Origin: Diacronema lutheri
Taxonomy: Eukaryota > Haptophyta > Pavlovophyceae > Pavlovales > Pavlovaceae
DNA length: 64,000 nt
NCBI GenBank assembly: GCA_019448385.1
Contig: JAGTXO010000020.1
Coordinates: 124,001-188,000, forward strand
Direction of reading: 5' to 3'
Part shown: piece after piece, positions 14,515 to 64,000 of the stretch
How positions within the stretch are numbered: position 1 is the stretch's first letter
Layout of the letters: each line of letters starts with the position of its first letter
Program-made: the position numbers and the translations under genes
The notes under the pieces: generated by a model
What the model saw: only the letters and a program-made list of their open reading frames with translations
The model's database searches: none
What the model was told of the DNA's origin: nothing

Positions 14515-14570
14515 TCGAAAATAGTAAAAGAGGAAAAGGCGAAAATAATTTCCATACGGTTTCGGACATT
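14515..14570. promoter_or_regulatory. A-rich island between divergent Orai-like and myosin genes
   Basis: A stretch with AATAGTAAAAGAGGAAAA and GAAAATAATTTCC in the 193 bp between start codons at 14430 (minus) and 14624 (plus). A promoter role is inferred. Confidence 0.4.
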
Positions 14571-14623
14571 TCCTTGAGGGAGTTCCCCGACGTGTAGGGC
14601 GCGTTCCCCGCCGACGCGCACAA

Positions 14624-15539: not shown

Positions 15540-15592
<53 letters not shown>

Positions 15593-20652: not shown

Positions 20653-20702
20653 CGCGAACAGAAATTGGAAACAGCAGAGCAGTCCTCCTTCCTTCCTGTT
20701 TG

Positions 20703-22352: not shown

Positions 22353-22521
22353 ACGAGGCGCGCGCGAGGCGCTGTCGAACGCGGTTGAGCCGCTGGGAGG
22401 GCCCGCGGGCGAGGCGCGGCGGGCGGCGGCTTGGCTGTGTGGAAATGACGGGACGGGGGTTGCGTCCACAAGCCGTTCATTCCTGATGAGCCTTCGCCCC
22501 CAAAACCCCAAAAACGGCCGG

Positions 22522-25383: not shown

Positions 25384-25706
25384 CTACGATGGCGGCTTTT
25401 TGTCCCAAGGCTGTGTGTGGCCTGTGACTCTGGGAGTGACTTTTTGCCTCCCATCTAGGACGGGTGTGCATGTCGCGTTGGTGGACGGGCGGCGGAGGCC
25501 AACGGCGCCGGCGCAGGCTGCAACGGCGCCGGCGACCAACGGCGCAGGCTGCAGCACGACGTCCTCGTCGCTGCCCCAAAAGCGTTGATCTCACGCACAG
25601 GGTGGGACCGCGGGAGCGGAGGGGAGGGAGCGATTGCGGATATGAGTACTGAAGCGAAATTGCCGCACCTTCCGCACGGGCGCCCAGTTCCGCGCGATTG
25701 GCGGCG
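25384..25706. promoter_or_regulatory. Divergent promoter region between TCF25-like and OSCA-like genes
   Basis: A 323-bp gap between start codons. It includes a short imperfect tandem of GGCGCCGGCG-type units (25500-25550) and no convincing gene. A regulatory role is inferred from position. Confidence 0.3.
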
Positions 25707-28391: not shown

Positions 28392-28567
28392 GTCCCGCAT
28401 CTGACGAGCGACTCGGCCCGGCACCGCGTCGAGCGCGTGCCAATGTGGGGTCGCGCTTTGCCTTGGGCTGCGGCAGAATCTCATGCCTGTCACGCAGCGC
28501 GCGCGCGCACCTGGCGCGTTGCGGCCGGTACACGTCGCGGCGTCACCATTGCCACCATGTCACACGT

Positions 28568-31500
28568 TCAGACGTCACGCACTGCACCAAGAGTGAGCGC
28601 ATCGATGTACAGGCGCTCTCGCGCGCCCCTTCGCTCGCGCTGAATGGCAGCTGCGCGCGCTTCCGCCCTGTCCACCCACGCGAGCAGCCGTTGCGCGAGC
28701 TGCTCGCGCTCGTGTCGCGCACCAGCGGGCACACGCAGCTGCAGCTGCGCGCACACGCGCTGCACGTCCGCCGCGCCTAGACGCTCGCCCAGACTGCTCT
28801 CCGGCAGGTCGACGCTTGGGCCCGCTCGTCGGTTCCGGCCACCGGCCACGGACCTGCCGTCCGCTCGCCGCGCGTGCGCGCCGTTCGCCTCGGCATGGGT
28901 GCATGCGTCGGCGGCCGCGGGTGGCGCGGCCTCGGCGTCTGCCTTCGCGGGCGGGCCCGTCGTCGGCGGCGCGCACGCCGGCGCGCACGCCTGAGAGAGC
29001 TGTCCGCCGTCCAGCACGCTCGACCGATCGGCGGGCTCGGTGGCCACCGCGTCCGCCGCGAAGAGCGCGCTCGCGCGCTCGGCGCGCGCCGCGCGATGCG
29101 CGTCAAGCGCGCGCGCAAAGGTGACGGCATGCTGCCCTGCGCTTGCGCGACCGTGCGGCGCGAGGAGCGGCACGCGAAAGAGGGCGTGCTCGACGCGCGA
29201 CGTGCAGATGAACGCGCTCGCGCTGAACGTGTCGATGCCGAGCAGCTGCCAGCACGGCTCGTCGTCGTCGCGTGCCGAGTCCGCTGGAGCGACGCGCGCC
29301 GCCAGACGGCGGGATGCGAGAGCAGGGGCAGGGCAGGGTGGAACGGGCGGGGGGCACGCAAGGGGTCAAGGCAGGCCCGGAGGGGGCGAGAGCAGGGGCA
29401 GGGCAGGGTGGAACGGGCGGGGGGCACGCAAAGGGTCAAGGCAGGCCCGGAGGGGGCGAGAGCAGGGGCAGGGTGGAACGGGCGGGGGGCACGCAAAGGG
29501 TCAAGGCAGGCCCGGAGGGGGCGAGAGCAGGGGCAGGGCAGGGTGGAACGGGCGGGGGGCACGCAAGGGGTCAAGGCAGGCCCGGAGGGGGCGAGAGCAG
29601 GGGCAGGGTGGAACGGGCGGGGGGCACGCAAAGGGTCAAGGCAGGCCCGGAGGGGGCGAGTGCAGGGGCAGGATGGAACGGGCGGGGGGCACGCAAAGGG
29701 TCAAGGCAGGCCCGGAGGGGGCGAGAGCAGGGGCAGGGTGGAACGGGCGGGGGGCACGCAAAGGTCAAGGCAGGCCCGGAGGGGGCGAGAGCAGGGGCAG
29801 GGTGGAACGGGCGGGGGGCACGCAAAGGGTCAAGGCAGGCCCGGAGGGGGCGCATGTCACACGGAGGTCGAAGCGCGGGGCGCGCGCCCGCCCGCACCAA
29901 AAGCAGCGGCGAGATCAACCCGCTCGAGCAGCGCTGCACGCGCCAGATATGCGCCACTGGCAGGCCATCCCGGCGCAGGGCGTGCAAGCTGGCCAAGCCG
30001 CACGACGTGCCCCGCCTCCGCCGACGCGCACACCACCGCCTCGACCAGCAGCAGCAGCACGTGCGCGCGCTCGCACGCGGTCAGCGCGTCGTACGCGCGG
30101 GCGCAGCGCGCGCGGGCATCGGCCGCGTGCGGGGGCTCGGCCAAGCCCGCGCCGAGCGCGCGCCGCGCCGCGCCATCGTCAGCCGCGTCGAGCAGCGCGC
30201 GCAATGCGGGGCTGGCGACCGCCCCACCCTCGCCCGTCACCCAATCGAACGCGCCCGCGCACAGCGCGCTCGCTTCAGCAGCGCGCGGCGTGGCGGTGTG
30301 CGTGGCCGAGCGGCGCGTCGCGGGACCGCGCGCGCCGCCGGCTGATAAGGCCGCCGAATCGACCTCGCGCGCCGCCGGGTCGGGCACGCCGGCGCCACCT
30401 TCCGCTGCTCTCAGCATGGCGGCGTCATCGCCCGCTGTGCCGTTCAACGCGCTCATGCCGTGCGGCGGGTCCGCCTCTCCAGTGCCACCGAGCGCGAGCC
30501 TTCGCATCTCGGCGGCGCGGAACTCCTCCAGAAACGCGCAGATCCCGGCACACACCCGATCGTAGAGCGCGCGCGCGGCTGCGCGGCGCGCGCCGGCGGG
30601 CGGCGCCGGTGGCGGCGCCGTGTTCTTCGCCGCCGCCGGGGTGGCGGCCGGTGGCGCGCAACGCACGGCGTGCGCGCGCGGCGGCCCATAGTGCGCGCCG
30701 CCGACTCGTCCGCCCTCATCCTCACTCGCCGCCGCGCCGAGCTCGGCAGCGTGCACGAGCAGCGCGCTGTGCACGCGTACCCACAGAGACGAGACGCGCG
30801 GCACGAGAAGCGCACCTTCGAGGTCCGCAAGCGTTGGCGGCCCGGTGCTGCCGGCCGCGCCGAGCGGCGCGGGCTGCGTCGAGGCAGCGCGCCCGTGCTC
30901 GGGCGCGGGCGGCGGCGCGGCGACCGGCAAGCCCGCAGCCTCCCAACCGCCGCCGACCGCCAGGCCGAGGCGTGGCGCGATCGCGAGCAGCGCGACCGCC
31001 GCGGCGACGAGCTCGACCGAGTGCTCGAGCGCCGCGCGCTCGACGGCGGGCAGCGCGCCGCTCGCCCATGCCTCGGCGCGAGTCGTAACAGCTGAGCGCT
31101 CGTCGCGCGCGCGCCGCTCGCGCGCAGCCTCGTCCGCTGCGTGCTGCCGCAAGAGCGCCTCCCACGTGCTGCTCGCGCCGGCGCGCACCGCCTTGCTTGC
31201 GCGCGACGAGCGTCGGACGTACGCATCGATCTCGCGCTCGGCGGGCGCGGCTACGTCGCGTGCGTCCGCGTCGGCGTCGAAGGGCGCGTCGAGTCCGAAT
31301 GGGCGAGCGTCGAGGCCCAGCGTGGCGCGCAGCCGCATCGGCAGCAGCTGCAGACTCAACTCAAGCTGCTGGTCCACCCTGAGCGCGGCGCGAGAAACTG
31401 ACGAGCCGGCCGGGTCGCCGTAGATCGAGTAGGTCCGTGCGAGCAGCGAGCGGACGTCGCGCACGAACGGCGCGAGCGCAGCATATTCGCTGTGCGTCAC

Positions 31501-41815: not shown

Positions 41816-44800
41816 CTATTGCCATCCGCCGCCTGTCGGCGGTTCCGCCCCTCGCGGCTGGACAGTGCTGTGCCCAAAGTAGTTGTCGATGCGGGCCTTC
41901 GCGCCGCCGCCAGGCATGGGCGCGCAATTGGTGGCGCGCTTGTGCGCGGGCGCTCCGCCCGCGCCGTCGAGCTCGGCGAAGGCGAGCGCACCGGCGGCGC
42001 GCTTGACCCCGCCACCCGCCTGCAGCGAACCTCCGTGCCCGTCGAGAGCGCGCGAGACAGTGTCCAATTTGCGGTTGACCGTTGGCCAGACGAGGTCATC
42101 GATTGAGCCGCGCATGAGCAAGTACACGACATCGACGGGCCGACGCTGGCCGATGCGGTGCGCGCGGTCCTCCGCCTGCTGCAAGTCGGATGCGTTCCAC
42201 GAGAGCTCGGCGAAGACGACGAGCGACGCGGCGGTGAGCGTCAGCCCAACGCCTGCCGCGGTGATGGACAAGACGGCCACGCGCACGTCGTCCTCCTGCT
42301 GGAACTGGTGGACGAGCGACGCGCGCGCCTCCTTGGCCGTGCCACCGTCGATCCGGATGTGCCGCACGCCGCGCCGGTCGAGCGCCGCGCTGAGCCCGTC
42401 GAGCACGGCGCGGTGGTGCGCAAAGGCGAGCACCTTCCTCTGCGCGCACGCGTCCAGCTCGCGCTCGACAAAGGCGCATGCGGGCACGAGCTTGGCGTGG
42501 CCGGTCGCCGTGCGCAGCGCGGTCAGCTCGGTCGAGTCGCGCGAGAGGCGCGCGCCGCCCTTGGCGTCGACCGCGGCGCGCGCGGCGACAAGCGCACGGC
42601 CGAGGGCGTCGGCCGGCTGTGCGAGCTCGACGGCGCGGCGCGTCTTGTGCGGCAGCTTGATGGTCTCGTCCTTGAGCCGTCGGATCATGACGGCGCCCTG
42701 CAGCGCGCGATTGAGCTCGTCGAGGTTGGAGCGCCCTTTCGCGTCCCAGCCGAAGCGACCGACGTGCCCATCGCAGTACCGTGCCGTATACTCCTCGTAA
42801 CTGCCAAAGAGGCCGGGCCGGAGCATCTCGAGCTGCGAGTGCAGCTCGGACGGGCGCGACGTGGCGGGCGTGCCCGAGAGCAGGATCACGCGCCGCGCGC
42901 CGCGCGCGAGCCCCGACGCCGCGCGCGTCCGTTTCGAGTCTGCGGACTTGAGAAGGTGGCTCTCGTCGCACACGACGACGCCAAAGCGTGCGCGCGCGAG
43001 CGCGTCCCACCCCTTCTCGAGGAGCGCGTACGTGACGAGCACGAGCTGCGCGTCGGCGCGCGGCTCGTCGCGCCCGCTGACGAGCGTCTGCACGCTCGCG
43101 TTGGGCAGCACCTCCTCAGGCAGCCACTTGAGAACCTCGGTCCGCCATCCTGCGAGGAGCGATGGCGGCGCGACGATCAGCGCCGGCCAGTCGGCTGCGT
43201 ACGCGGCGAGCGCGGCGATCGCCTGCACCGTCTTGCCCAAGCCCATCTCATCGGCGAGGAGCGCGCGCCCGCCGCATCGCAGCACAAACTCGACGCCCTC
43301 GCGCTGGTGCGGAAGCAGGCGCTCAACGACGCCCGTCGGCAGCGCGTCCGCCAGCCCGCCGATCGCGAGCGCGTCCGCGTCGAGCTGCGCGGCGAGCTCG
43401 GCTGCTCTGCGCGCGATCGGCACGAGCGGCTCGAGCCGGAGGCTCACGTCCGCTCGCGCGCCGAGCGCGAGCGCCTGCGCTTCGTTCAGCCGCCACAGCC
43501 GGCGCTGTGTGTCGAACGCGCCCTGGTCGCAAACTGAACGCATGAGCGCGTGGAAGGCGGGCACGCCGCCGTACGCGGCCGCGTCGGCGCGGCTCGGCTC
43601 GGACGCGCGGTAGACGACGGCCGCGCGCTCGCCGAGCTCGGCCCACGCGCTCACGCGGATCGGCGCCGATGGCGGCGCCGGCGTCTGCGGCTGGAAGGGC
43701 GGTTGGGCCAGCGGTTGCGGCTGGATGGGCGGTGGGGCCAGCGGTTGCGGCTGGATGGGCGGTGGGGCCAGCGGTTGCGGCTGGATGGGCGGTGGGGCCA
43801 GCGGTTGCGGCTGGATGGGCGGTTGGGCCAGCGTTTGCGGCTGGATGGGCGGTGGGGCCAGCGGTTGCGGCTGGATGGGCGGTTGGGCCAGCGGTTGCGG
43901 CTGGATGGGCGGTTGCGCCGGCGTCTGCGGCTGGAAGGGCGGTTGGGCCAGCGGTTGCGGCTGGATGGGCGGTGGGGCCAGCGGTTGCGGCTGGATGGGC
44001 GGTGGGGCCAGCGGTTGCGGCTGGATGGGCGGTGGGGCCAGCGGTTGCGGCTGGATGGGCGGTTGGGCCAGCGTTTGCGGCTGGATGGGCGGTTTGGCCA
44101 GCGGTTGCGGCTGAAGCTGCGCCGGCGGCTGCGGATGCGCAAGCGGCGCCTGGGCGGCAAACGCGAGCTCTGGGCACACGCTCCCTTCCGCGGGCGCGCC
44201 GCGCGCAGGGTAAGCCGAGCTCGCGGGCGCGACGGCGGGCGGATGCACGTCGCGTGGTGCTGCAGCCGGGCGCTGGCCGGGCGTAACGGCTGCGTTCGTG
44301 CACGGCGCGCTCGGCGAAGGCGGAGGGCACGCGCTGCAGAGCGCGCGCGCGAGGGGCGAGCGCGGCTCGAGCGCCTGGCCCGGTTGAGTGGAGCGCGGCG
44401 GCATGGCATGTGCGCCCGGGAGTTGCGGCCATCGTTGCTCGGCATCGTGGGCGTGCGCGGCCAGCTCGGCCTTTCCGGCGCGCGGCGAGAGCAAGGCGAT
44501 CGCGCCGGCACTTGGCTGGTGCAGCTGGTGCAGAGGGTGCGAAGGGTGCGGCGGCTGCACGAAAGGAAGAGCTTCATGCCCAGCCAACGGCAGGCGCGGG
44601 CCCCGCAGCTCGGCTGGCCCCGCAGCGCGCAGCGGTGGGGCGTGCGCGCTCGGCAGCGCAGCGCACTGCGCAGCGCACGCGCCGTGGGCAGAGAGCAGCA
44701 TGCCGCCAAAGGGCGCGCTCGCGCCGTCTGCGGGTAGCACGGTCGCAGAGGCCCCTCCCATCGGCGTCGCGTGCACGCTCTCCTGCGTCTTTGCAGGGCA

Positions 44801-49660: not shown

Positions 49661-51262
49661 CTATGCCGGCGACAGCTCGCCCTCGGCCGCGAGAGCCCCC
49701 AGTCCGGCAAATGCCTCCACGTCCGCGTCGGCGGTGCCGTCCGACGACGCGTCCTCGTCAACGTCGGGCTCGCCGAGCGCGTAGCACTCGCCGTCGTCGC
49801 CGAGCACGATGGTGTAGCCATCGCCGCACGCGACGGCCGCCGCACGCACGCCGGCCGGCAGCAGCGCGGGCGCGCGGCTCGGCCGCTCGACGACGACGGT
49901 CGAGCCTGCAACCGCCGGCGCGGGCGGCGCGCGCGCCGGCGCCCACGCCGCCTCGCCGTCCGCCGCCAAGGCCTGCCAGCCGTCGGGCAGGGCGCCCCAG
50001 AGCCAGAGCCCGCCACACTCGTCAATGGCGGCAGAGTGTCGGGCGCCGGCGGCGCACGCGACGGCGCACGTGCTCTCGTCGCCGAGCGTCACGCGCTCGG
50101 GCTGCGCCCGGCTCACGCCGTCCCCAAGCCCGAGCCTTCCGTCCCCGCCGCAGCCGCACGCGTACAGAGCGCCGTCCGCTGCCAAGAAGAGGGAATGGGA
50201 GGCCCCGGCAGCGGCCGCGACGACGGCCGTCGCCTCGAGCGCGCCGAGCACGCGGCGCGGCTCATCAAGCGCGCACGCTAGTCGAGCCCGCGGCGCGCCA
50301 AACCCATCCGCATGCGCCAGCGCCTCCTGCGCGTGCCCGAGCTGCCCGTCGAGCCCCTGACCAAAGGTCCACGCGTACCCGTCGCTGTCCACCACGATCG
50401 AATGGTCCTCGCCCGCCCACGCGCCGATCGCATGCGCGCGCGCGGCGAGAGAGCTGATCAATTGCGGCACTGCCGAGCTGTGCTCGTCGCGCTCGCTGGC
50501 GTCGTCCTCGCCCGACAGCGGCGCGCCCACCGGTGCGAACGCGGCGGCGTGCGGGGCGCCGAGGCCGAGGCGGCCGCCGTGCGCCCATCCGGCCGAGTAG
50601 ACGCGGCCGGCGGCGGTCACAAAGAGCGAGTGCGAGAAGCCGGCGGCGACACCGACGACCCGCTCGACTGCAAGCGCGCCGACCGCGCGCGGCTCGCGCA
50701 CGTGCGCCAAGCCGCGCGCGGGGCCGAGGCCGAGCGCGCCGTCCGTACTATCGCCCCACGCAAATGCCTCGCCGTCCGCGGTCGCGACGAGCGTGAAGCC
50801 ATCGCCCGCGGCCGCGGATATAACGCGCAGCACGTCGCGTCCATCCGCACCCGTCGCTGCCGCGCGCGGCGCGCGCGGCGCGCGCACGCGCGGAGCCGCC
50901 TTGGGCGCGGCGTGGTCGACCGTGCCGCCGTCCGCCGCGGTGCAACCCGCGCCGGCGACCGCGCCACCGGCGGTGACGACAACGGTGCCGTCCTCAAGGA
51001 CGCGCGCAAAATGGGCGCGGCCGGCCGAGAGCAGCGGCGCCTGCGCCGCTGCGCGCATGCGCGCCTCCACGAGCCGCAGCTTGCGCGAGGCCGACCAGCC
51101 GTCGACCGGCGGCGGAGTGACGCGGAGCTCGCGGCAGGTGAACATGAACGCGTCCGCGGCGGCGGCGGCAAAGCGGCGCGACACGCACGCGGCGCGCGCC
51201 AGAGAATCCGCGCCGACGAAGTGCAGCGCGTGTGCGAGCACGTCGTCGCCGAGCACATCCAT
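49661..51262 (-). CDS. F-box protein with RCC1 repeats
   Basis: Single-exon protein of 533 residues from the ATG at 51262 (the frame is open further upstream but is low complexity there). An F-box-like helix pair (MDVLGDDVLAHALHFVGADS, then ACVSRRFAAAAAD) is at the N-terminus. Five or more RCC1 blades follow, marked by AAGDGFTLVATADGEAFAWG, AAGFSHSLFVTAAGRVYSAG, WAGEDHSIVVDSDGYAWTFG and AAGASHSLFLAADGALYACG with GQLGHA/GRLGLG turns. F-box proteins are substrate adaptors of SCF ubiquitin ligases, and RCC1 propellers bind the partner or substrate. The last blade is acidic and degenerate. Confidence 0.82.
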   Translation of the reverse strand: MDVLGDDVLAHALHFVGADSLARAACVSRRFAAAAADAFMFTCRELRVTPPPVDGWSASRKLRLVEARMRAAAQAPLLSAGRAHFARVLEDGTVVVTAGGAVAGAGCTAADGGTVDHAAPKAAPRVRAPRAPRAAATGADGRDVLRVISAAAGDGFTLVATADGEAFAWGDSTDGALGLGPARGLAHVREPRAVGALAVERVVGVAAGFSHSLFVTAAGRVYSAGWAHGGRLGLGAPHAAAFAPVGAPLSGEDDASERDEHSSAVPQLISSLAARAHAIGAWAGEDHSIVVDSDGYAWTFGQGLDGQLGHAQEALAHADGFGAPRARLACALDEPRRVLGALEATAVVAAAAGASHSLFLAADGALYACGCGGDGRLGLGDGVSRAQPERVTLGDESTCAVACAAGARHSAAIDECGGLWLWGALPDGWQALAADGEAAWAPARAPPAPAVAGSTVVVERPSRAPALLPAGVRAAAVACGDGYTIVLGDDGECYALGEPDVDEDASSDGTADADVEAFAGLGALAAEGELSPA

Positions 51263-51751
51263 GGCGTCCACTTCGGCGGTAGATGCGCGCGGCACGTTCC
51301 AACGGCACACGGATTCCCATATCAATTTTTGGGCAGCAAGCGGCTCGTATAGATGGTCAAGCCAAATCCGATCAGGGGCACGATCGCGCCCCGAGTGCAG
51401 CGCGGGCCGTTCGGAAGGACGTCCTTGTGAGGGAGCTCTTCGCGTTTGGCGAGCGGGGGAGCACGACGCGCAGCGTTGCTGCGGCGGCGTGCGGGCGGCG
51501 AGCAGCGGTCGGGCTGCTCGCGACGAGGCCGGAGCAGACGGCGCCGTGGCCGCCGGCGCAGGTGACGCGCGCCGACGAGCCGTAGCGAGCGTCCGTGATC
51601 CGCACGGCGGTTGGAGCGGGCCGGCTGGTGCGGCGCGCTCGGCCACGGGTGGCGGCGTGCACGGTCGTGCCGCGCGCGGCACGCGTCGCCAGCCGCGCGC
51701 GACCTGGGCAGAGCCCGCAAAGCGTCGACCGCTGCGCGGCTCGGCCGTGCG
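51263..51751. other. Gap between the Fanzor gene and the RCC1 gene
   Basis: About 490 bp on the minus-strand downstream side of the Fanzor stop. One minus-strand frame ends with a hydrophobic tail (GAIVPLIGFGLTIYTSRLLP) and stops at 51322, but no start or leader is convincing. In known Fanzor elements the guide RNA lies over the 3' end and downstream flank, so this is where it would be expected; no RNA structure was proven. Confidence 0.35.
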
Positions 51752-54480
51752 TCAACGCCGGCCGCGCTTCGGCCCGCGCGCGCTGCCGCCGCCGGCACTG
51801 GCGCTGGCAGCTCCGCGGGCGGGGGTGCGGGCGCGAGAGCCGCCGCCGCCACCGCCGCCGCGCCCGCCGCCGTCGTCGCCACCGCCGTCGCCGCCGCCGC
51901 CTCCCCCGCCGTCATCGTCGTCGTCGCCGCCGCCGCCTCCGTCGCCGTCGCCGTCGCCGTCGCCCTCGCCGCCGCCGCCGTCGCCGCTGCCATCGTCGTC
52001 GTCGTCGTCGTCGCCCTCGTCGTCGCCCTCGTCGTCGCCGTCGCACTCGTCGTCGCAGTCGTCGCCCTCGCCGTGCACCATGCGCTCCTCACGCTCCCAC
52101 ACCTCGCCGCGCGCCCACCAGGCGAGCACGAGGGCAAAGCGCTCAGGCGTCGACGTGGTGTCGCGCCCGGCCGCGTGCGCCGCCATGTCGTGCACGTCGT
52201 AGAAGATGTTGCGCGCGGCGTTGTAGTCGCGGTGCACGGGCTTCTTGCCGCCGTTGCACGCCGGGCAGATGACGAGCGCGTGCACCGTGCGCGTGCCGCC
52301 CTTTGCCACGGGCAGGCGCGGGTTCTGCGCGAGCTCCGCGCCGCAGCGCTGCAGCCTGCCGCCCTTGGCGAGCCGCGGCATCGAGCAGTGCATCGACGTG
52401 TACGGCTCGGGCACGAAGACGGCCGCGACGCCGCGCCGCCGCAGCTCGCGCAGCAGCCCCACCTGGAAGGCGGGCGGCGCGCCCTTGGGCTGCGCGCCCT
52501 TGTGGTCGCGCAGCCACTTGCCCACGCACACGAGCAGCCGGTCGCGCGTCACGCCGTCGACACAGTGCGCCGCGATGAGCGCCTCGGCGACGCGCGCCGC
52601 GTTGGACCGCCCGCCGCTGTCGCGCCGCCAGCGCTCCTTCCGGCGCGCCGGCGCGTCGTACACGTGCTCGGCGGCGCGCTCGCGCACCCGCGCGCTCTCG
52701 CGGTGGAAGGCGATGTATTTGCCCGCGTCGAGCACCTTGGCGCTGTGCGCCTCGCCAAGCCGCGCCTCGTCCGCCTCCACGCTGAACTCCTCGCCGCGCC
52801 CGTCGGTGCGCACGCGCCGCCGCGCCGCGTTGGTCTTGGCCGTCTCGCGCGCAAAGCCCGCGGCGCGCGCGCGCGCGCGCTGCGTGAACTGCCGCCAGAC
52901 GGCCGCCCGCCCGACGTGCGCAGAGTAGGTGGTGATGTTGCCCATGTTCGGGTCGGCCGCGACGACGACCGCCGCCTCGACGTCGATCGCCCGCCGCAGC
53001 TCGGAGCCGAGCGCGACGGCGATGCGCCCGTCCGGCCGGCGCCAGCGGTGCAGGACGCCCGAGCCGCCGGCCGGCGCCTGCGCCTTCGGCACGAGGACGG
53101 TCCCGACGGCGTGCACGGCGACGCCATCTGTCACCACCGACTTGACGGGCTGCCGGCCCGGGAGCGGCACGCGCGGCAGCGGCGCGAGGCCAACCCACGA
53201 GCGCCGCGCGTGCCACGGCAGATCGGCCGGCGGCCGCTCGCGCCCGGCGTAGTCGAAGACGCGGTTGGAGATGTCGAAGCGCGTCGCAAAGACCGCGTAC
53301 CTGACGCGCACGTCCGACATCGGCGGGGTGTTGCCGTTTGTGCCTGTCCACTTGATCGGCTCGCCATCGTGGTCGCGCAGGTCCAGCGCCTTGAGCCGCG
53401 CGCGCAGCTCCTTGCGCTCGTCATCCGAAAGCGTCACCCAGATGGCGCTCGCGGCGAGGCGCACGTTGCGCGGCACCTGCGCGCAGCGCGCGGCGCGCGA
53501 GCGCGCGGGCGCGTGACCAACCTGGCCGCGGGGCGGCGCGCACGGCGGCGGCGCGCGCGCTTGGGCGCTCGGCGGCGGCAGCGGCAGCCACGCCTCGCGC
53601 GCACATTGTGCGTGCGCAGCGGCGCCACATTGTACCGCGGCGGCCGTCCGGTCAGCTGCGTGTGGATGTGCGCGAGCCGGCAGAGCAGCGCCTGCCCCTC
53701 GGCCACGTGCTGCAGGGTGCGGATCTGCACGAGGAAGTAGCGCGTCGTGTGCCGGTCGTAGTTCCACCTTTTCGTGGGCGTGCACTTGTAGTCGATCTTG
53801 TGGAGGACCATGTCGGGCAGGTGGCGGTCGAGCGCGGCGGGGCAGCCGACGCGCGCGCCCTCCACGTCGCCGCGCAGCAGCCGCTCGCACAGCTCGCGCA
53901 CGCGCGCGTTTCGCTGCATCTCGGGCAGCGCGACGAGCGCCTCGTCGCGCTCGACTGCCGCGCGGACGACGTCGCGGAGCAGCCCGTTCACGACGCGCGA
54001 TGGGTGCATCAGGCACGCGGTGGACACCTGCGTCGCCTCCGCCTCGAGGATCTCCGTGAGGCCCACCGCGCAGACGGGCTGGACGCCCTCGGCCATCTCG
54101 CCGACGGCGCGCGCCGTCGCCGCCTTGGTCTGCGCGGCGGCTTGCTCGGCGGGCTTGCCTCGCGGCGCTGCACCGTACGTGCTCTCGTCCTTGTGCCAGC
54201 CGATGGCCGAGAAGATCGCACGGACGGATCCCTTGTCCATCGTGGTCGACGTGTGCACGCTGGTCGACGGGCCGCCCGACGCCGCGCCGACGGCCTGCGC
54301 GCTCGCCACCGCAGCCTCGTCGCGCACCACCTTGTTGATGACGCGGTACGCCTGTGTCGTGAGCCTGTGCACGGCCGCCGCGATGCGCCGCAGCTCCTTC
54401 CGCGCACCGGGCTGCGCCGTCACCGCCTGCGGCCCCGCGTTGAGCGTCGAGCGCTTGACCACGAAGCCCGGGAGCACGCT
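51752..54480 (-). mobile_element. Fanzor (eukaryotic TnpB-like) RuvC nuclease region
   Basis: The C-terminal part of the giant gene. The helical N-lobe starts near RKELRRIAAAVHRLTTQAYR and includes KIDYKCTPTKRWNYDRHTTR and LCRLAHIHTQLTGRPPRYNV. After the intron the RuvC core shows Asp in VVVAADPNMGNITTY (52930-52965), Glu in VFVPEPYTSMHCS (52395-52425) and Asp in HRDYNAARNI (52200-52235). A zinc ribbon is formed by Cys in MHC, RCG and CPAC. This is the order of the TnpB/Fanzor family, RNA-guided DNA endonucleases carried by mobile elements and some large viruses. The tail is a long Asp/Gly-rich acidic run ending in PKRGRR, a likely nuclear signal. Confidence 0.82.
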
Positions 54481-57400
54481 GCCGCGCGTGCGCGCCGTCG
54501 CGCCGCCGGCGGCGCGCGCGCTCGGCGCAGCGGGCTCGTCCACGCGCGCGCGCTCGACGCCGCGCGCGCGGGGAACGCTCGGCGCGCGCGCGCCCGCGGC
54601 GTCGCGCGCGCTCGCGGCGGCACCCGCCGCGGCGCGCTTGCCCGCGGCGCCCGACTCGCCGTGCGCGCGAAGCGGCGCCGACGCCAATGCCGACGCCGCG
54701 CCCGCGCCGCCGCTGCCGCTGCCCGATCCGCCCGCGCGCCGCTTCTGCTCGTCGCGCGTCTTGCGGAACTGGGCGACGAGGTCGCTGCTCACGTTGGCCT
54801 CAGGCTCCCACGTGTCGGCGCTCTCGTCGTAGCCCCGCCACCTGATCCGGAACTGGAACGTCACCTTCTTGCCCGCCTTGCGGCGCTCGTCGACGACCGC
54901 CTCGACCTCGTACGTGCGCGCCTCCTCGTCGACGCTCGCGCCCGCCGCGCTCGCGCCCGTGTCCGGCCACCCAGCGACCGTGCCGCCCAGCCTCTCGGCG
55001 GCCGCGCGCAGCTGCCGCTCGCGCTGGGCGGCCGCGGCGCCTCGCGCGACCAGCGCGGGCAGCATGCCCGCGCCGCCCGCGAGGCCGTGCGCGCCGACGC
55101 TGGCGGTCATCAGCGCGTCGAGGCACGCGAACGTTGCGAGCGCACACGCGCCATCGTCGCCGCCGCGCGGCTGCGAGCGCACGACGGGCGATGGCCGCGG
55201 CTCCCCCTCGGCCGCGAGCAGCGGCCAGATCGCACTGGCCAGCGCGACGGCATGCGCGCCGACCGCGACGGCCACGTCCGCGTCGAGCGGCGCAAAGTCG
55301 TAGCGCACGAGCGCGGCCGGGCGCGAGTCGTCCGTCGGCCGGTCGGCGACGAGCAGCCCGACCGGGCGCGGCGGCTCGCCGGACGGCGCGGCGACGGGCA
55401 CGCAGAGGAGCACGACGAGCAGGCGCGGCGTGCCGCCGAGCAGCGCGCGCGCGGCATCCGCCCCGTCGGCTCCGCCGCGCGCGGCCGCGGCGAGCAGCTC
55501 GGCCGCGCGCGTCGGGCCCAGCGCCGTGCGCGCGTCCTTGCGCGCGCGTGCGCGCGCCGTGTACGCGGCGCAGGCGTCGTCGAGCACCGCCGCGCTGGGC
55601 GCGGTGCCAGTCGTCGCCCACGCGCGCAGCGCGTCGCGCACCCGCGTGACGATCGCCTGGTCGACCGCCGCCTCGCCGGCAGCGTGCGCCGGCGCGCACG
55701 CCGGCGGTGCGGCGGCAGGCGCGAGCGCGGGCGCGCCGTCGGCGCCGTCAACGCCGACGGCGCCGTCGGCGCGCCGCCACGCGAGCTTCGCCTCGATCTG
55801 CTGCCGGACGGCGTGGCAGTGCCGGTCGATGCCGCGCGCGTCGTCGAGCGCGGCCAGCGCGTCCTCAGCGGCGGGACGGCCGCTCGCGTCCGCGACGGCC
55901 TGCAGGCAGAGCAGCGCGGCCGCACGCGCGTTGCACGCGCTCTGCGGCTCGGGCGCGAGCGCGTGTTCGAGCTCGAGCGGCGACGCGCCTCGCGCCGCGG
56001 CGATCGCGTCCATCAGCACGTCCAACCGCTGCACCAGCGCCCTGTGCGCGTCGCGCGGCGCGCCCGTCGACGGCGCGCGCGAGCGCGTCGCCACGAGCCC
56101 GAGCGCGCGCGCCGGCGCGCCCGCCGGCGTGTGCAGCACGAGCAGCGCCGCGCCCGCCAAGCTCGCGTTGCGCGTGACGAGCGCGAAGATGCGCGTCGCC
56201 TCGTGCGCGCCCACCGACGCCCAGATCGCAGCGCGATCGGCGTCCGTCTGCGCGTCGCACAGGTCGCGCACGTCGTCCGGCGCGAGCAGCGCGCCGCCGC
56301 CGGCGGAGCGCGCGACGATCGCCCGCGCCTCCGCCACGAAGACGGCCTGCGGCAGGTCGGCGTGGCGCGCGTCGACGATGGCGCGCGTCGCGTGCACGCC
56401 GAGCTCCACGCCGCGGTAGAAGGCGCGCGCGTTGGCCGCGCGCGCGTGCGCCGGCCGTCCGTCCGCGTTGCGCCTCGCGCGCGCCTGCTTGCTCGTGCGC
56501 GCGAGGCCGTCGCGTGGCGGTGGCGGCAGCGTGGCGAGGAAGCGCGCGGTGGGCGGCGGCGCGCGCACGCCGCGCTGCCGCCGTGCGATGGCCGCGAGCC
56601 GCCGGCCCGCCGCGCTGCCGCCCGCGCCGACGTGCTGCCAGCGGTTGAGCGCCGCCGGTGGCGGCGGCGGCGGCGGCGCGGCGGCGGGCGGCGGCGCGAC
56701 GGCGGGCGGCGGCGCGGCGGCGGGCGGCGGCGCGGCGGTGGGCGGCGGCGCGGCGGCGGGCGGCAGCGGCGGCGGCGCGGCGGCGACGGCAGCACCAGTC
56801 GGCATGTCCGCCCACGCACCCGAGACGCTGTCCCAGGCCTTGCCCGGTGGCGCGCGCCCACGCGGCCGCGGGTGGCGGGCTCGAGCGGCGGGGGGCGGGC
56901 GGCCGGCGCGCCAGTCGAAGACAGGTGCAACCGTGGCGGCAGGCGCCGAGTGCAGCGCGTCGGTCACAGAGCGCGTGGTGCGCGCGGCGACCGTGGCGCG
57001 CATGGCGGGCGGGCGGTGAGCAGCGCCCGCCGGCGCGCCGGCGGGCGCGGCAGCCGGCGCGCCGGCGGGCGCGGCCGCCTCGAGCCCGGCGGAGGCGCCG
57101 CGCTTGCGCTTGCGCGTGCCGCCGCGCGTGCGCCTGCGCGCGCGCCCGCCGCGCGCCCGTGCGGCCTGCGCGTCGCCAGCCGCGTCGCCGGCCGCGTCGC
57201 CGCGCCGCACGTAGACGATCGCGAACGCCTCCTCGCCGGTCCCGTCGACGCCGCCGCGCGCGCGGCGTAGGACCGACCGCCACTGCAGCCGCCGCGCGCG
57301 GCCGGGCTCGCACGCAAACCAGCGCCCACCGCGCCTGACGACGGCCACAAAGTCGTCGTCGCGCCGCCCGCGCCGGCGCGTGCGCAGCAGCACGCACTGC

Positions 57401-60400
57401 ACGTCGAGCCAGCCCTCGTGCCAGTCGGCCGTGCTGGGGGCGACGCGAATCGACTGCGGGAGCTCGACGCCAAAGCCGGCGAGGCGCACGATGTGCGCGA
57501 CGATGACGCTCGAAATGGCGGGGGCGCTCGACGGGTCGTCCGCTGCAGCGAGCACCGCCTCGCCCCAGTGCTCACGCGTGACGCAATCCGCGTCCTCGAC
57601 GTGCACGTGCGCCACGCTCGCGCCGAGCTGGTGCAGCAACGCGCAGATGTCGGCGTCGACCGTCCTCTCCTCCTCGGCCGCCTCGGCCGTGCCGCGGGCG
57701 GCGGCGTCGCCCGCCGGCTGCCCGAGGTACGCGATCGCCCGCTCGACGGCCGCGCCCTCCGCACGCGCTGCGCTGGCGATCGCCGCATTGCCGACGGGCG
57801 CGCGCAGCGCCGCGATCGCGTCTTGCAACGCCGTCGCGTCGCCCGTCGCCGCCGCCGCCGTCACCGCCGCCGCGCTCGCGGTGCCGTGCGCGACGGCGTG
57901 CAGCGCGGCGGCGCGCGCGGCGGGGATGCGCCCGTCCAGCGCGAGCACGAGCGGCGGCCCGGCCGGCGTCTGCTGCCGCCGGTGCCGCCGGCTCGCAGCC
58001 GGGTGGTCGGCGCGCGCGCGCTCGAGCCGCGCGCGCCGCTCGACGACGCGCGCCCAGAAGGCCTGCACCCTCGGCTGCGCGAATGCAAGCCAGCCGGCGC
58101 CGCGCGTCACGACGTGCACGACGATCCGGTCCTCGTGCCTGAGGTACTGCACGTAGAGCGCTTTGCTCACGCCGAGGACGTGCATGCCGAGCTGCAGCTG
58201 ATCGCGGTGCGGCTGCGGCGGCCCGTCCTCGTGCGCCGTGGCGCCCGCCTTGGTGAGCGTCTTCACCTCGACGAGGACCTGCTCGTTGTTTTCGGGGAGG
58301 ATGGCGAGCCCGTCCGGCGAGAAGGCGAACGGCGCGCTCTTGTCGTGCGGGTCCGCACGCACCATCGGCAGGTTGCACACGACGGTGATGCCGTACGCGG
58401 CCGCCAGCTTGCGCAGCGCGACGGCCTCGCCGAGGATGCCCGCGGTCGTCGCCTTGGTCCGCACCTCGCGCCGCCGCCGGTGCACGTACTCGTCGGTGAG
58501 CGTCTCGTGCGCGACGCCGGCGTTGTCGTTCACGACGTCGCCAACCTTGCTGCCCGTGACCTCCTCCCATCGCTCGTCGTGCCAGCGCGGGCTGCGCTGC
58601 GCGGGCGCGCCCGCGCCGACGGCGTCGAGCACGCGGCGCAGCGCTGTGCCGTCGGGCGCAGCAGGCACGCGCGCGCGGTCCTGGGCCTCGCGAGCGTCGA
58701 GGACGCGGCCCGTAGTGGAATCTTGGGGTAGGTCGAGCTTGCTCGCCTCGCCGTAGCGGCTCTCCAGCTGGCGCGGTGCGTCGGCAGGGCCGCCGTCCGT
58801 GCGCGCACCCGACGCGCCCGCCAGTGCACGCGGCGCAGCGTCCGAGGCGCCCGCCGCGCCCGCGCCGCCGCCAATCGCGCCAGCGCACGCGCGCGCCGCG
58901 ACCTGCGGACGGCCAGCCGCAGGGACCTCGTCCGCTCGGCCGGCCGCTGCGTCGGCCGTCCGCTTGGCCACCTCGCGCACGTCTCCGAGCGCGAGCGTGG
59001 CTGGCGCCGTCCAGCTCCCGTTGCGTTTGTCCCAACATTTGAGCAGCCCGCCAAGGAAGGGCGTGCCCGTCGGGCGGTCCTCGGGCACCTCCGCCAGGAT
59101 CGCGTCGACGCGCAGCGCGGCCGCCACATCGCAGAACGCGCGCGCGGCGCGCGCCATCCGCTCGGCGCGCGCGCCGCCGTCGTCCGCCGCGCGGCGGATG
59201 GCGTGGCTCACGTGCGCGACGCGGAGCGAGACGACGGCGTGCGCCGGCGCGTCGGCGCCCGTGCCGAGCGTGTGCCGCCGGATGGCCAGCTGCCCATCGC
59301 CCATGCGCGGCGGCAGCGACGCGCACGCCGCGACGGTCGTCGTGCCGGCCGCGCTGTCGCACAGCCAGCTCGCCTCGCCGCCGCCCGCAAACTCAAAGGT
59401 CGCGAAGCCCTCGCGGCCGAAAAGCGCGACGAAGTGGTCGAGCACCGCCTTGTTGATCGCGCGCGCCGCCGGCCGCGTCGATGCGCCGCGGGCAGCGCCA
59501 CCCGCCGCGCCGCGCGCATCGCTGCACGTCGCAGGGCAGGTGCAGCCGGACGCGCGCACGCCGTCCGACCGCGTCCGCGGCAGCTCGAGCTCGCGCACCT
59601 TGGGGCAGAACCAGAGCGGGTTGGACGCCTCGAGGCACAGCACGACGAGCCGCCCGTCCGTGCCGGCCAGCGCGCGCGCGTCGCGCAGCAGCTCGACGGC
59701 GAGCTCGGACGTCGCCGCGTGCACCGCCGGCTCGCCCGTCGCGCGGTCGGGCGGGAAGAGGCCGCCGCCGACGAGCGGGCTGGGGCAGCGGCCGAGCATC
59801 ACGAGAAGCGGCGGCGGCGGCGTCTGCGGCGCCTGCTGCCCGACCGCAGCCGCCGTCAGCCCGGCCAGGTCGGAGCTCGTGCGGAGGGCCTTGAGCGCGA
59901 CGCGCGAGCCGGTGCCCGCCTGCTCGGAAAACGTGGCGAGCATGGCGCACGTGCTCGCCCTCGCGCCGCACTGCCAGCTGACGCGCGCGAGGAGGCCTTC
60001 CAGCGTGTCGTTTTCGCGCGGCCGCGTGACCGCGTCGAGCGCCGCCGGGCCGAGCTGGAGGCTGCCGGGCGTGACGCACAGCACCGCCTCGTGGTAGGCG
60101 CGCAGCAGCTCCCTCGGCAGCTGCTCGGCGGGCGTCGCCGCCTGCCCGCCCACCCACCGTGCACCGTGGCCGCCGTCGCCCGCGCCCGCGAGCCGGACCG
60201 CCGGCCCGCCCGTGATCGCCGAGGTCGGCGGCGTGCCGAGCGCGTCGACGAGCGCGCGCACGGGCGCGACACGCCTGCGCGCAGCGTCCGCGCCGACGGC
60301 GAGCGCGGCGATCTGAGCGCCCTCCCATGCGCGCTCCCTCGCGTCGTCCCGCGCGGCCGCCGGCGCGGCGCCCGGCCGCGCGCCGGGCGGCACCGCGCAC

Positions 60401-62293
60401 GCCGCCGCGACGACCTCCGCGCGCGCGCCGGCGGCGTCGGGCGCGTGCAGCTGCGCGATCGCGCCAAAGAGCGCGGCGGCCGAGCGGTAGCGGCCGTGCG
60501 CCGCGACGAGCGCGTAGAGCACGCGCAGCGCGGCCACGCCCGCCTGGTCGGGCGCGTCGTCAGCGATTTGCTCGACCTCCCACGTGCGCGTGGGCGGCGG
60601 GCTGCCGTCGGCCGGGTCCGGACGCAGCGCCCACGCGCGCTCGACGATCGCGTTGAACACGTCGCGCGCGGCGCCCTCGTCAAACTCGGCGGCGCCCGCC
60701 GCGTGCGCGCACCACCCGTGCACGCGCGACGTGGGCGCGTCCACGGCGCGCTGCACGACGAGCACCGCCGGCCGGTCGACGCAGCCGAGGCTCACCGCCG
60801 CGTGCTTGCCCTCGAGCAGCGCCGCCGCCGCAGCCTCGACCAAGGCGTCATCAGGCGCGTCGCCGACGACGACGGCACAGCCGTCGCCGTACTCGGCCTG
60901 CATCGCGGCGACGCACGACGCGACAAAGTCGCCGCCCGCGGCCGCCGCGTGTCGCGCCGCCAGCATCCGGCGCGCGATGGCAAGCCAGACGTACTCGGCC
61001 GGCGCGCGCGCGGCGCGCGCGCGAGGCGCGCCGGCCGCGCCGCGTGCGCCCGCGCGTGCGCCTCCAGCGGCCGCAACGGCCGAGGCGGCTGGAGCGGCGG
61101 TGAGCGTGCGCCGCGCGCGCTTCGCCGGCCGCGTGATGGGCGATGCACCCGCCATCGCACCGCCCGCAGCAGCCGGTGCGGCCGCCACAGCGCCCGCCGC
61201 AACGCCACTCGTCACGACGCCCGTGGCGGGCGGCGCGGCGTCGGACGCGGCCGCCTCGACGGGCGTCGCGCAACTACCGCCAGCGGTCGCGGACGCGCCC
61301 GGCGACGCGTCGGCGAGGAGGTGGCGCAGCACGCCGCGCGCGAGCGCGACTCGCACGGCGAGCGTCAGCGCGCGCAGGCGGTCGGAAGGCGAGGCGTCGC
61401 GCTCGGCGTCGGCGGACGTGGCGGCAGCAGGCGGGGCGGCGGGCGGCACGGCGGCGGGCTGGGCGGCCGCCGGCGCAACCTCGTCGGCCTTGGCCAGCCA
61501 GACGAGCCCGGCGACTGCGAGCACGACGCTGTACGCGCCGACATCGTCACCCGCAACGCGCGCCAGCCGGGCGTGGGCGTCGGCCTCGGACACGGCGACG
61601 TGGAAGAGCACGTCGTCGCGGGCAGCTTGCTCGGCAAACTGACGCAGCTGCTTGGCCATCGTCACGCCGGCGACGCACGCCTCGCCCGCCTCTGCCTCGA
61701 CCTGCTCGTCCTGGCCGATGGCGGACGCGCCGGCCTCGGCGCCAGCGTCGAGTGTCCGGCGGCGCTCGAGGGCAAAGCCACGCACACAGACGCGCTGGAG
61801 GCCGCCGAGCGCGCCCGCCTTCTCGTGCAGCGCGCACGACAGCTCGACCACCGAGTCCACGCGCCTCGCGGCGGCGCCCCCCCGCTCGCCGCGCGTGGCC
61901 GCGCGCACGACGAACACCGTGAATTGCGCGCGCTTCGCCGCGCGCGCCGACGCGCACGCGTGCTTCAGGAGCCGGCAAAGCGCGGGCCTTTGCGCCGCTG
62001 CGCCCCGCGTGCACAGCAGCAGTTGGCCGCGCTCGTCGCCCAGCTCCTGCTCGACGGCGGCCTCGAGCGCGTCGTCCGTCAAATCGCCGTGCTCCGTCGA
62101 GGCGAGCGCGCGCGCAGCCGCGAGCGCCAGCTCGCCTGCGCCCGCGCGCCGCCGGCGGCGCGCACCGGCGGGCGCGTGCGGCGCCGACGCGTGTGACGAC
62201 GCCGCCGCGTCCGCGCGCGCACACGCGGCGCGCAACGCCTCACGCGCCGAGGCGGCCGCGCGCGCCCTGGGCGCGAGCTTCAAGAACGTGCGC

Positions 62294-62361
<68 letters not shown>

Positions 62362-63846
62362 GGCCGGCGGCGGCGGTGGCGGCGGTGGCGGCGCGGCCAC
62401 GGCGGCGGCAGCAGCGGCGGCGGCGGCGGTGGCGGCGGCGGCGGCGCCCAGCGCGGGCGGCGGCGGCGTGGCGGCGGCGGTGGCGGCGGCGGTGACGCCA
62501 GCGGCGGCCTTGGCGCCGCGCGTCTGCGGCGGCGTTTCGGCGCGATCGGGGCTGCCCCCGCCACGCACCGCGCTCGTGACCGCGCAGACGCCGCCCGGCG
62601 CACGATCGCTGGCCGCGCCGGTCAGCGCGACGCGGAGGCGCTCGCCGACAGCGTACATGTCCGCCACGCTGAACGTGCGCGGCGCGGACGAGCAGCCCGC
62701 CGCGGCGAGCGCGTCGTTGAGCGCGCCCACTATCGCGAGGCCGCACGTCGCGCCACGCTGCGCCGCCTCGTTGAGCAGCAGCGCGCGGCGCACGCGCGAA
62801 ATGTCGAGACCCGCCGCGTGCAGCGTGGCAGTTATCGCCTTGGCGAGCATGAGCGCCTGCCTGCAGGGCGACGCGAGCGTGTCGACGAGCACCGCGTCGT
62901 AGCGATGCTCGCCCGCGCGCGCGACGCGCACAAGGCGCAACGCGGTGAAATGGCCGGAGGCGAGCTGCGCGCCGTCGTCACCGCCCGCGCCGCCGCGCTC
63001 GTCCGACGGGCTCCACACGCCGATGACAGCCTGCGTTGTCGCCTCGCTGCGCAGGCGGTGCAGCAGCGCGGCGCGCTCGGCGTCGTCCTGAAACACCGCG
63101 GGTTGCGCGGCGAGCGGCACGTGGCAGACATGCCCGCCGCCGGCCTGCCCGTGCACGCGCAGCACGACCTCGCAGCACGCGTCGACGGTTGAGGCGAGCA
63201 TGTCGCCGCTGGCGATGCGCTCCACCTCTGCCTGCGGGAGGCCGGCGCTCGCAGCGGCGGCGGCCAGCCGGCGCGCAGCCGCGTCGCCCGCCCACGCAAG
63301 CAGCGCCGAGTTGGCGGGTTGGAGGGGAAGCTCAAGGGCGGCTGGTTCGGTGGCGGTAGCCTCGTTGGCAACGGGCACGTTGGCGGTGCGCGCGTTGGCG
63401 GCGGGCGCGGCGGCGATGGCTGGTGGGGCGGAAGACGCGCCCGCGGCGGCAGGCGCGGACGCGGCAGCGGCAGCGGCTAGTGGGGCGGGGAAAACGCCGT
63501 CGGTGGCAGGCGCGGAGGCGAATGCAGGAGCAACTAGTGGGGCGGGAAAATCGGCGGCAGGCGCGAAGGCGGATGCAGCAGCGGCTAGTGCGGCGGGGAA
63601 AACACCGTCGGCGGCAGGCGCGAAGGCGGATGCAGGAGCGCCCAGCGGGGCGCAGAAAACACCGTCGGCGGCAGGCGCGAAGGCGACAGCAGCAGCGGCC
63701 AGTGGAGCGGAGGCGCAGGGCCACGCGCGCGCCAGCCGTGCAAGCCCAAGCCGCGCGCGAGCGACGCACGCGCCGATGGCCGAGGCGGCGGCGCAGGCCA
63801 CGACGTGGCCTGGCACCGGTGTGGCCAGCCGCTCGCGGGTGTGCAC
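51752..63846 (-). CDS. Giant multi-domain protein ending in a Fanzor nuclease; 5' end uncertain
   Basis: Two minus-strand exons, 63846-53605 and 53476-51752, joined by a 128-bp intron (GTGCGCGCG to GCGCGCAG), give about 3,990 residues. The junction joins PLRTHN to VPRNVRLAASAIWV in phase. The frame has no in-frame ATG near 63846, so the true start is either a downstream ATG or an exon beyond the window. From the N-terminus: a 19-residue Ala-rich repeat; an intact-looking Ulp1/C48-like module; Ala tracts; further module-like segments; a YqaJ-like exonuclease (about 1750-1930); an AT-hook-like module (about 2330); another C48-like module; a chromodomain (about 2975-3025); and the Fanzor region. 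There is no stop in over 10 kb of exon 1. The gene may be part of a mobile element; no transposase or element ends were found. Confidence 0.7.
54775..54925 (-). other. Chromodomain in the giant gene
   Basis: The frame reads TYEVEAVVDERRKAGKK, then FQFRIRWRGYDESADTWEP, then ANVSSDLVAQF. The chromodomain pattern (YEVE, K/R-W-x-GY, TWEP and a C-terminal helix) and the aromatic cage residues Tyr, Trp and Trp are all present. Chromodomains bind methylated histone tails. It lies about 150 residues before the Fanzor N-lobe, the gap being Ser/Gly- and Ala-rich. Confidence 0.88.
55090..55420 (-). other. C48-like module next to the chromodomain
   Basis: A segment LLVVLLCVPVAAP with later GLLVADRP, RYDFAPLDAD and QPRGGDDGACALATFACL resembles the strand, Asp and Q-x-x-CG-like parts of Ulp1/C48 peptidases, but a catalytic His is not obvious. 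Inference by pattern only. Confidence 0.4.
56800..56880 (-). other. AT-hook-like module shared with the 620-1906 gene
   Basis: The frame reads PRPRGRAPPGKAWDSVSGAW followed by AD-MP. It matches the module present three times in the protein at 620-1906 (PRGRPPKGK-x-WD-x-x-x-G-x-W-x-D-x-P). Confidence 0.7.
58050..58590 (-). other. YqaJ/lambda-exonuclease-like domain in the giant gene
   Basis: The order of PD-(D/E)XK exonuclease marks is complete: WHDERWEEVTGSKVGDVV (W-x-R-x-x-x-TGS), Glu in GILGEAVALRKL, Asp in FSPDGLAI, EVK in LVEVKTLTK and a Gln-rich helix RDQLQLGMHVLGV. YqaJ-type nucleases act in viral and phage recombination (single-strand annealing systems). All catalytic residues are present. 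Confidence 0.78.
62290..62510 (-). repeat. GCC/GGC triplet repeat coding polyalanine
   Basis: A (GGC)n run of about 24 triplets at 62293-62360 and further GCG/GGC-rich sequence to 62510 encode long Ala tracts with a proline run between them, in the giant gene. Confidence 0.9.
62700..62960 (-). other. C48/Ulp1-like peptidase module with His, Asp, Gln and Cys
   Basis: The segment has GHFTALRLVRVAR (His near residue 297), DAVLVDTLASPC (Asp near 320) and AAQRGATCGLAIVGALND (Gln and Cys near 358-363). This order and spacing fit the Ulp1/SENP peptidase triad plus oxyanion Gln, normally cleaving SUMO or polyprotein sites. Seen motifs are direct; the family call is by pattern. Confidence 0.6.
63421..63703 (-). 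repeat. Coding 57-bp tandem repeat near the start of the giant frame
   Basis: Four to five copies of a 57-bp unit (one of 51 bp) encode an Ala-rich repeat with FAPAADGVF. Copies differ by several bases each. Confidence 0.85.
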
Positions 63847-64000
63847 GTCGAGCCGCGCCCCACGCCAAGAGCGGCGGCGCGCTGAACGGAGGCGCGCGAC
63901 CCCGATCGATCCGCCCGCGCACGCGCGCGCCGGCTCAGTGTGGCCAACGCGCGCCGCTATGCAAGGCGCGCGCGCGATAACGGCGGCTGTCGGCCGTGGC

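Follow-up and report, generated by a model that had tools for sequence, protein, structure and literature searches.

The stretch of DNA analysed here, 64,000 nucleotides of the haptophyte Diacronema lutheri (contig JAGTXO010000020.1, positions 124,001 to 188,000 of the forward strand; hereafter the window), carries on its minus strand, at 51347..64000, the 3' part of a repeat of about 31.0 kb with sharp ends. The 3' end is shared across copies, and the 5' end is located outside the window, at the window-equivalent position ~82339; the whole copy spans G000:C34:175347-206339, an end-pair length of 30,993 bases. That this repeat is a mobile element is regarded as highly probable. Within it a chromodomain, a nuclease of the YqaJ type and a Fanzor core lie in one predicted coding chain, a combination supported by the profile matches and motifs described below.

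The C-terminal part of the chain is encoded by exon C (51752..53476, minus strand), an open frame that comprises the Fanzor RuvC core, a zinc ribbon, an acidic/Gly tail and the stop. The core matches Pfam PF07282 (Cas12f1-like_TNB, zinc ribbon) at E = 4e-6, with the TnpB-type zinc-ribbon region and its four Cys at 52205..52444. The published Fanzor motif D-X(125,275)-[TS][TS]-X-X-C4 zinc finger-X(5,50)-RD was found at this place only in the six frames of 92 kb. By sequence motif, the catalytic Asp of RuvC-I is in ADPNMG (52952..52954) and that of RuvC-III in RD (52226..52228). The alternative RuvC-II Glu, for which the signature ExxxxxxC has been described (PMC10711439), is present at 52406..52408, six residues ahead of the first Cys (EPYTSMHC); the full pattern ExxxxxxCxxC is absent, the first knuckle reading CSMP with the second Cys further along. 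DPG is found "near exclusively" at RuvC-I in Fanzors (PMC10711439), whereas the present core reads DPN(MG), with Asp and Pro kept and Gly shifted; because DPG is a frequent and not an absolute signature, the core is filed as a putative divergent Fanzor. A TDG motif, reported for the WED domain of Fanzor1 (PMC10711439), occurs in VVTDGV (53123..53131) about 60 residues before the RuvC-I Asp, in what may be a WED fold. In a sequence search of PDB with the core, Cas12f1 appeared at E = 0.24, second to an unrelated chain at 0.19.

The chromodomain (54760..54912, minus strand) matches Pfam at 5.1e-12 (46 bits against a cut-off of 25.1), and PDB chromodomains match the long frame down to 4.2e-9; a Y, a W and a Y, which we take to be the methyl-lysine cage positions, were read by eye from the alignment. 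The YqaJ/RecE-like exonuclease domain (58033..58608, minus strand) matches PHROG 434 at E = 5.2e-15, and its E, D, ExK and Q are visible. The same domain gives 2.3e-5 with NCBIfam TIGR03033, under that profile's cut-off, and with Pfam 0.023 (15.4 bits) when the full chain is searched, against 1.6e-4 (22.4 bits, cut-off 22) for the excised piece. These two domains and the Fanzor core had been named in a first-pass annotation of the window and are borne out by the profiles.

The other modules named in that annotation fared less well. Two C48-like modules, each with His, Asp, Gln and Cys in order, can be recognized by motif in the chain, the second at 62665..63327 (minus strand; the four residues at 62743-62952). 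Neither gave a C48 profile match, whole or excised, and the second had no Pfam match at E up to 10; the Ulp1/C48 assignment is kept as a motif only. The AT-hook-like module had no Pfam match in the chain. The proposed SUMO/ubiquitin-type peptidase is in the chain a motif only, and the peptidase with better support is a UCH ubiquitin-hydrolase-like domain (Pfam 4.3e-8) that a different open reading frame (ORF) of the element encodes beyond the window.

The uninterrupted frame of more than 10 kb noted earlier is confirmed and is longer than was apparent. On the minus strand it is free of stops over 53434-63999, is open at the window edge, and extends to equivalent position 66924, that is, 13.2 kb without a stop in total. 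Assuming independent bases of exon B composition, the chance of 4,397 codons staying open is ~1e-18. Third-position GC in the assigned frame is 0.85-0.96 per 600-base block between 53.8 and 63.4 kb, and by our count the expected strand and frame were obtained in 52 of the 62 300-base segments over element 11701-30300. Upstream lies a second frame with the same codon signal, starting with Met at equivalent position 70603. The gene is predicted to consist of three exons and two phase-0 GT-AG introns (133 and 128 nt); for the 31 kb copy this makes a product of 6,196 residues, in place of the roughly 4,000 first proposed. Predicted exon B occupies 53605..64000 of the window (minus strand, from the open frame and the codon-phase signal) and in full would reach equivalent position 66795; it holds a 57-bp tandem repeat (63444..63710, minus strand), which is longer in one 26 kb copy and in which the codon phase is unclear.

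The intron that would join exon B in phase to the RuvC exon, as had been suggested, is predicted at 53477..53604 (minus strand, 128 nt, phase 0) from the frame change and a GT-AG scan. This intron 2, at element 28742-28869, is one of 28 GT-AG pairs that fit the frame change and is third by a simple score; it was chosen because the Fanzor sequence continues across it. For intron 1, predicted at element 15418-15550, 26 GT-AG pairs fit the frame change, and the chosen one has the top score. It is fairly probable that a single continuous polypeptide, as predicted, runs from the C48-like module through the Fanzor.

The element recurs across the genome. The assembly scanned comprises 43,492,796 bases (43.49 Mb) in 103 contigs, one of them of 3,042,068 bases; the published assembly has a GC content of 73.25% and amounts to 43,502,671 bp in 103 contigs, of which the longest measures 3.042 Mb (PMC8379373). 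The 3' terminal pattern was matched 216 times (up to 1 mismatch) and the 5' terminal pattern 203 times (up to 2 mismatches); sites of the PIF1 helicase gene of the element and of the chromodomain numbered 204 and 224, respectively (up to 3 mismatches), and the reversed patterns gave 0 matches each. End pairing drew on 100 5' ends and 100 3' ends listed out of these 203 and 216. A listed 3' end lies within 40 kb, in the correct orientation, of 64 of the 100 listed 5' ends, and these 64 pairs represent 62 distinct 3' ends, as three 5' ends on contig C27 (48026, 55790 and 64293) stand ahead of one 3' end. The pair lengths fall into four main size classes of about 31 kb (26 pairs, 30.9-31.1 kb), 21.5 kb (13 pairs, 21.4-21.65 kb), 26 kb (8 pairs, 26.0-26.9 kb) and 29 kb (8 pairs, 29.1-29.45 kb), with 9 others. 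The mean is 27,995 bases, and the total 1.79 Mb, C27 overlap included. Multiplied by 203-216 copies, this mean gives by extrapolation 5.7-6.0 Mb, or 13-14% of the assembly, a share that is rather high if the unpaired ends come from truncated copies.

Among 424 candidate copies of the Fanzor exon, 92 were scored and are 99-100% identical with no internal stop; the same 1,015-codon frame is kept in 74 of the 92 (our count), and the 462-residue Fanzor core is stop-free in all 92 copies listed. The element has therefore likely been amplified recently, because its ~200 copies are nearly identical where read.

Different size classes seem to share the C-terminal chain and to differ toward the N-terminus. 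On contigs C1-C43, all 60 end pairs surveyed contain the exact chromodomain site, whatever their size class (4 pairs on C45-C48 were left out of this survey, and three pairs share one C27 3' end). Exact PIF1 sites were present in 24 of 24 pairs of the 31 kb class, 5 of 7 of the 26 kb class, none of 12 of the 21.5 kb class, none of 8 of the 29 kb class and 5 of 9 others. The zeros should not be taken as a lack of PIF1 in the 21.5 and 29 kb classes: they denote no exact match, and the one copy of ~21.6 kb that was read has PIF1 with one mismatch. This copy (L011 with L001, one copy, the read of which leaves its 5' terminus and middle outside) is without element 8.75-18.9 kb; the coding stretch that comes first in it is another one, begins with a Met and is joined in frame to the C48-like module. 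One 26 kb copy is without element 6.4-14.1 kb. Seven copies of the 31 kb type have an exon A that stays open up to one common stop, and exon B is stop-free in the four of them that were checked. Thus the part from the C48-like module to the Fanzor, which lies in the window, seems to be common to these size classes, and the N-terminal part varies, as judged from one copy per class with the middle parts inferred from lengths.

Several points weigh against the reading preferred here, that of a giant Fanzor element with one fused chain. Around element 18.3-18.9 kb the codon-phase signal weakens or shifts, and a frame switch occurs near 18.9 kb in one 26 kb copy, because of which the long gene may be two; the chromodomain of one 29 kb copy holds a stop; and fold predictions were of no use for either the RuvC part (single-sequence model, predicted local distance difference test, pLDDT, 36.9) or the C48-like part (pLDDT 40.6). 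The ratios of nonsynonymous to synonymous substitution (dN/dS) are mixed. In comparisons between subfamilies, the assigned frame has the lowest ratio in the RuvC exon (0.61; other frames 1.05 and 1.08) and in the C48-like module (0.56; 1.31 and 1.07). The ratio is contrary to the frame in the exon A part (1.95; 0.61 and 0.64), is 0.82 in exon B at 15.6-18.6 kb (other frames 1.36 and 0.79) and 0.94 in the chromodomain/N-lobe exon (0.75 and 0.89), and reaches 1.26 and 1.23 in the two assigned frames of PIF1. The ratios thus speak for the assigned frame at either end of the shared chain and nowhere else; because each comparison contains few differences, they are weak evidence either way.

The frame change and the mixed ratios would suit a division of the chain into at least two genes, one for the Fanzor with its chromodomain and upstream ones for the nuclease and peptidase-like parts. 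Also in favour of such a division are stretches of low complexity at element 19.8, 21.0, 25.2-25.5 and 27.6 kb, where the codon signal is slight, and size, Fanzors being normally proteins of 500-900 residues. However, the length and improbability of the open frame given above argue for one gene; high third-position GC continues in the same frame on the flanks of each low-complexity stretch; and the ~21.6 kb copy, its middle unread, joins its own first coding stretch in frame to the C48-like module. A division into separate genes is held to be less probable than the single polypeptide.

The ends of the element are precise. All 3' junctions read (18 rows, 16 distinct copies) stop at the same base, window 51347, with differing flanks; the junction sequence is TATAC in 15 of the 16 distinct copies (one at a contig edge) and TAAC in the other. 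The 3' non-coding end (51347..51751, minus strand), with a palindrome near the terminus and the final bases ...CCATCTATAC, is where a guide RNA would be expected. Among 15 5' junctions with a readable flank, TATATA directly precedes 11 and ATATA 12; of the remaining three, one is the window copy, which has TATTAA, another belongs to a doubled end, of which it is the inner member, and the third is a short fragment. TATATA has 0 occurrences in the 92.2 kb string formed by the window and its neighbours. A fixed TATATA on the left side is what the target-adjacent motif of a TnpB-like system would look like. An exact target duplication was considered and rejected, as copies whose 5' side has TATATAG or TATTAA nevertheless carry TATAC at their 3' end. 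A comparison of the first 90 with the last 200 bases showed none of the terminal inverted repeats that mark cut-and-paste DNA transposons. Palindromes lie close to both element ends, those near the 5' end being nested (L029:7062-7948, arms of 89-207 bases, 95-97% complementary), and there is a 10-base asymmetric inverted repeat with one mismatch, one of four comparable matches.

The ends also show some irregularities. Doubled 5' ends occur on contigs C6 (L040, G000:C6:30950-31250) and C2 (G000:C2:30518), where the terminal ~45 bases recur in part directly outside the first end. L042 is only a 5'-end fragment of about 39 bases. At least 14 contig ends fall within about 12 bases of an element terminus: contigs C1, C5, C6, C10, C12, C26, C29, C80 and C83 start at the 3' terminus, C32, C49 and C72 start at the 5' terminus, and contig ends lie at C8:187138 and C32:562156 (the starts are 12 of 21 read, those 21 having been chosen for this purpose). 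Either Canu breaks at the 31 kb repeat or free linear molecules of the element may account for this.

Besides the giant gene, the element carries a separate gene for a PIF1 helicase, which is split between two frames with Pfam matches of 4.2e-14 and 1.8e-24. A further 28 ORFs and pieces, the larger ones, gave only weak matches (ANAPC1 0.037, CRISPR_Cse2 0.042 and weaker). In the element ORFs so scanned, no match was obtained for a tyrosine recombinase, a reverse transcriptase, an integrase, an annealing protein (RecT/Beta), a capsid, a packaging ATPase or a polymerase, nor for the Helitron Rep (Helitron_like_N, PF14214).

The junctions could be those of a Crypton-like element, conservatively integrated by a tyrosine recombinase at a TATAC core, which would account for the near-constant TATAC at the 3' end and for TATATA[C/G] on the 5' side without exact duplication. 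Apart from the lack of a recombinase match in the ORFs scanned, Phage_integrase matches occur at 16 places in the genome, none of them in the window copy or in copies with both ends listed (the places on C50, C69 and C92 fall beyond the end listings), and this origin appears quite improbable. A rolling-circle element of the Helitron2/Helentron kind, with a Fanzor and other cargo acquired by capture and with Rep moving it in cis or in trans, would agree with the PIF1 helicase, the want of terminal inverted repeats and of a clear target duplication, the terminal palindromes and the asymmetric inverted repeat; moreover, Helitron2 elements that carry Fanzor1 are known from Chlamydomonas (PMC3627910). 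Against it, the larger element ORFs scanned contain no Rep domain by Pfam; PF14214 matches the genome at one place, on C63, instead of about 200, and is not in the window copy; the target is TATATA and not T-rich; and the inverted repeat has three equals. Such an origin is thus considered unlikely, although less so than the Crypton-like one. Descent from a virus or virus-like element that integrated, such as a giant virus or a polinton-like one, might be suggested by the large size, by the helicase, exonuclease and peptidase-like parts and by the occurrence of Fanzors in algal viruses (PMC3627910). But none of the capsid, packaging or polymerase functions was matched in the ORFs scanned, and three single-protein pattern scans of IMG/VR (Fanzor core, PIF1 part and YqaJ part), which reach close relatives only, found no relative; a viral origin is very improbable indeed.

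Taken together, the element is probably a giant, recently amplified Fanzor element, and its fused chain may unite three activities: the reading of chromatin, the resection of DNA ends and RNA-guided cutting. A break-and-copy role has been proposed for Fanzors in general by Saito et al. (PMC10432273). In the present element, the Fanzor part would use a guide RNA made from the 3' end and flank of the element and would cut a TATATA-adjacent site, which could be the empty allele or a new or related site beside TATATA. The RecE/YqaJ-like exonuclease would resect the cut ends, PIF1 would help the strand synthesis that copies the element into the site, the chromodomain would hold the complex on modified nucleosomes, and the peptidase-like modules may cut the chain into parts. 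This mechanism in full can be put forward only tentatively. Rather doubtful is the further proposition that Fanzor, RecE-type exonuclease and chromatin reader, as one polyprotein and together with PIF1, would themselves copy the element into TATATA sites by break and recombination without a classical transposase, and so constitute a new kind of element.

Counting against this overall reading are the 36 of 100 listed 5' ends without a listed 3' partner, and the 3' end itself: its RNA folding is no better than that of shuffles (z -1.13 and -1.29), and in the most different copy read its conservation does not clearly exceed that of the coding part, with 6 changes and 2 gap columns in 405. No transposase was found in the element ORFs scanned.

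The window copy adjoins an RCC1-type host gene (window 49661-51262, Pfam 1.4e-52, ATG at 51262), 84 bp upstream of its start codon. A chromodomain could, as was suggested earlier, steer the nuclease to methylated chromatin; this site does not look like silent chromatin. On the 5' side stands an ORF for a Zeta-toxin-like kinase (2.1e-20, L030:81-1742), the stop of which is ~42 bases from the 5' end. A second repeat, ending about AGCGYCGTTAGT, lies beside several insertion sites near TATA-like words (flanks L016, L026, L035 and L041). The sequence G000:C45:1-60, ~2.2 kb from an element 5' end, opens with (CCCTCA)n, possibly a telomere repeat. Tandem repeats outside the element occur at window 4598-5328, 29331-29852 and 43686-44113, with units of 57/174, 65/135 and 30 bases, respectively.

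D. lutheri is an aquaculture alga. In the genome paper, repeats amount to 22.9% and the long terminal repeat (LTR) and long interspersed nuclear element (LINE) classes to 36.5% of the masked bases; the main text has no word starting with "transpos" (PMC8379373). The Fanzor element may explain part of the repeats outside the LTR and LINE classes. This alga has one Fanzor element in ~200 copies, which are almost the same in the parts read and by extrapolation make up ~13% of the genome; activity of the element is therefore likely recent and measurable. According to Saito et al. (PMC10432273), finding out why transposons keep Fanzors needs the removal of multiple host copies. If the chain is one protein, the union of RNA-guided cutting, end resection and histone reading in a single molecule would be new, and the way in which a guided nuclease finds chromatin could be tested directly.

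Comparison with known systems places the parts in several families. The exonuclease resembles the RecE/lambda-exonuclease (YqaJ) recombinases in profile match and in the catalytic E, D and ExK, but is embedded in a giant eukaryotic chain, with no RecT/Beta match in the ORFs scanned. Chromodomains are shared with LTR retrotransposons and adintovirus integrases (PMC6338049, PMC11071296), in which they belong to the retrotransposon polyprotein or the integrase, whereas here the chromodomain stands ahead of a Fanzor. Like Helitron2/Helentron elements, which carry Fanzor1 in a green alga (PMC3627910), the element has PIF1, no inverted repeats and palindromes near both ends; it differs in its insertion at TATATA and in that no Rep was found in the ORFs scanned. 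No chromodomain-YqaJ or Fanzor-PIF1 pairing was found in the literature, of which subscription papers were mostly outside coverage, and the accessible parts of publications on Fanzors and chromodomains contain no fusion of both. Fanzor1-bearing transposons are already known (Bao and Jurka 2013; Saito et al. 2023), and the present element shares with them the C-terminal RuvC core with its D...[TS][TS]xxC4...RD motif, the alternative Glu, the TDG motif and the position at the 3' end of a mobile element. As the first-pass annotation had supposed, the domain combination was found in no described protein in the literature covered: here the core, with DPN for DPG, follows in one frame after long peptidase-like stretches, a RecE/YqaJ-like nuclease and a chromodomain, in an element of ~31 kb present in about 200 copies.

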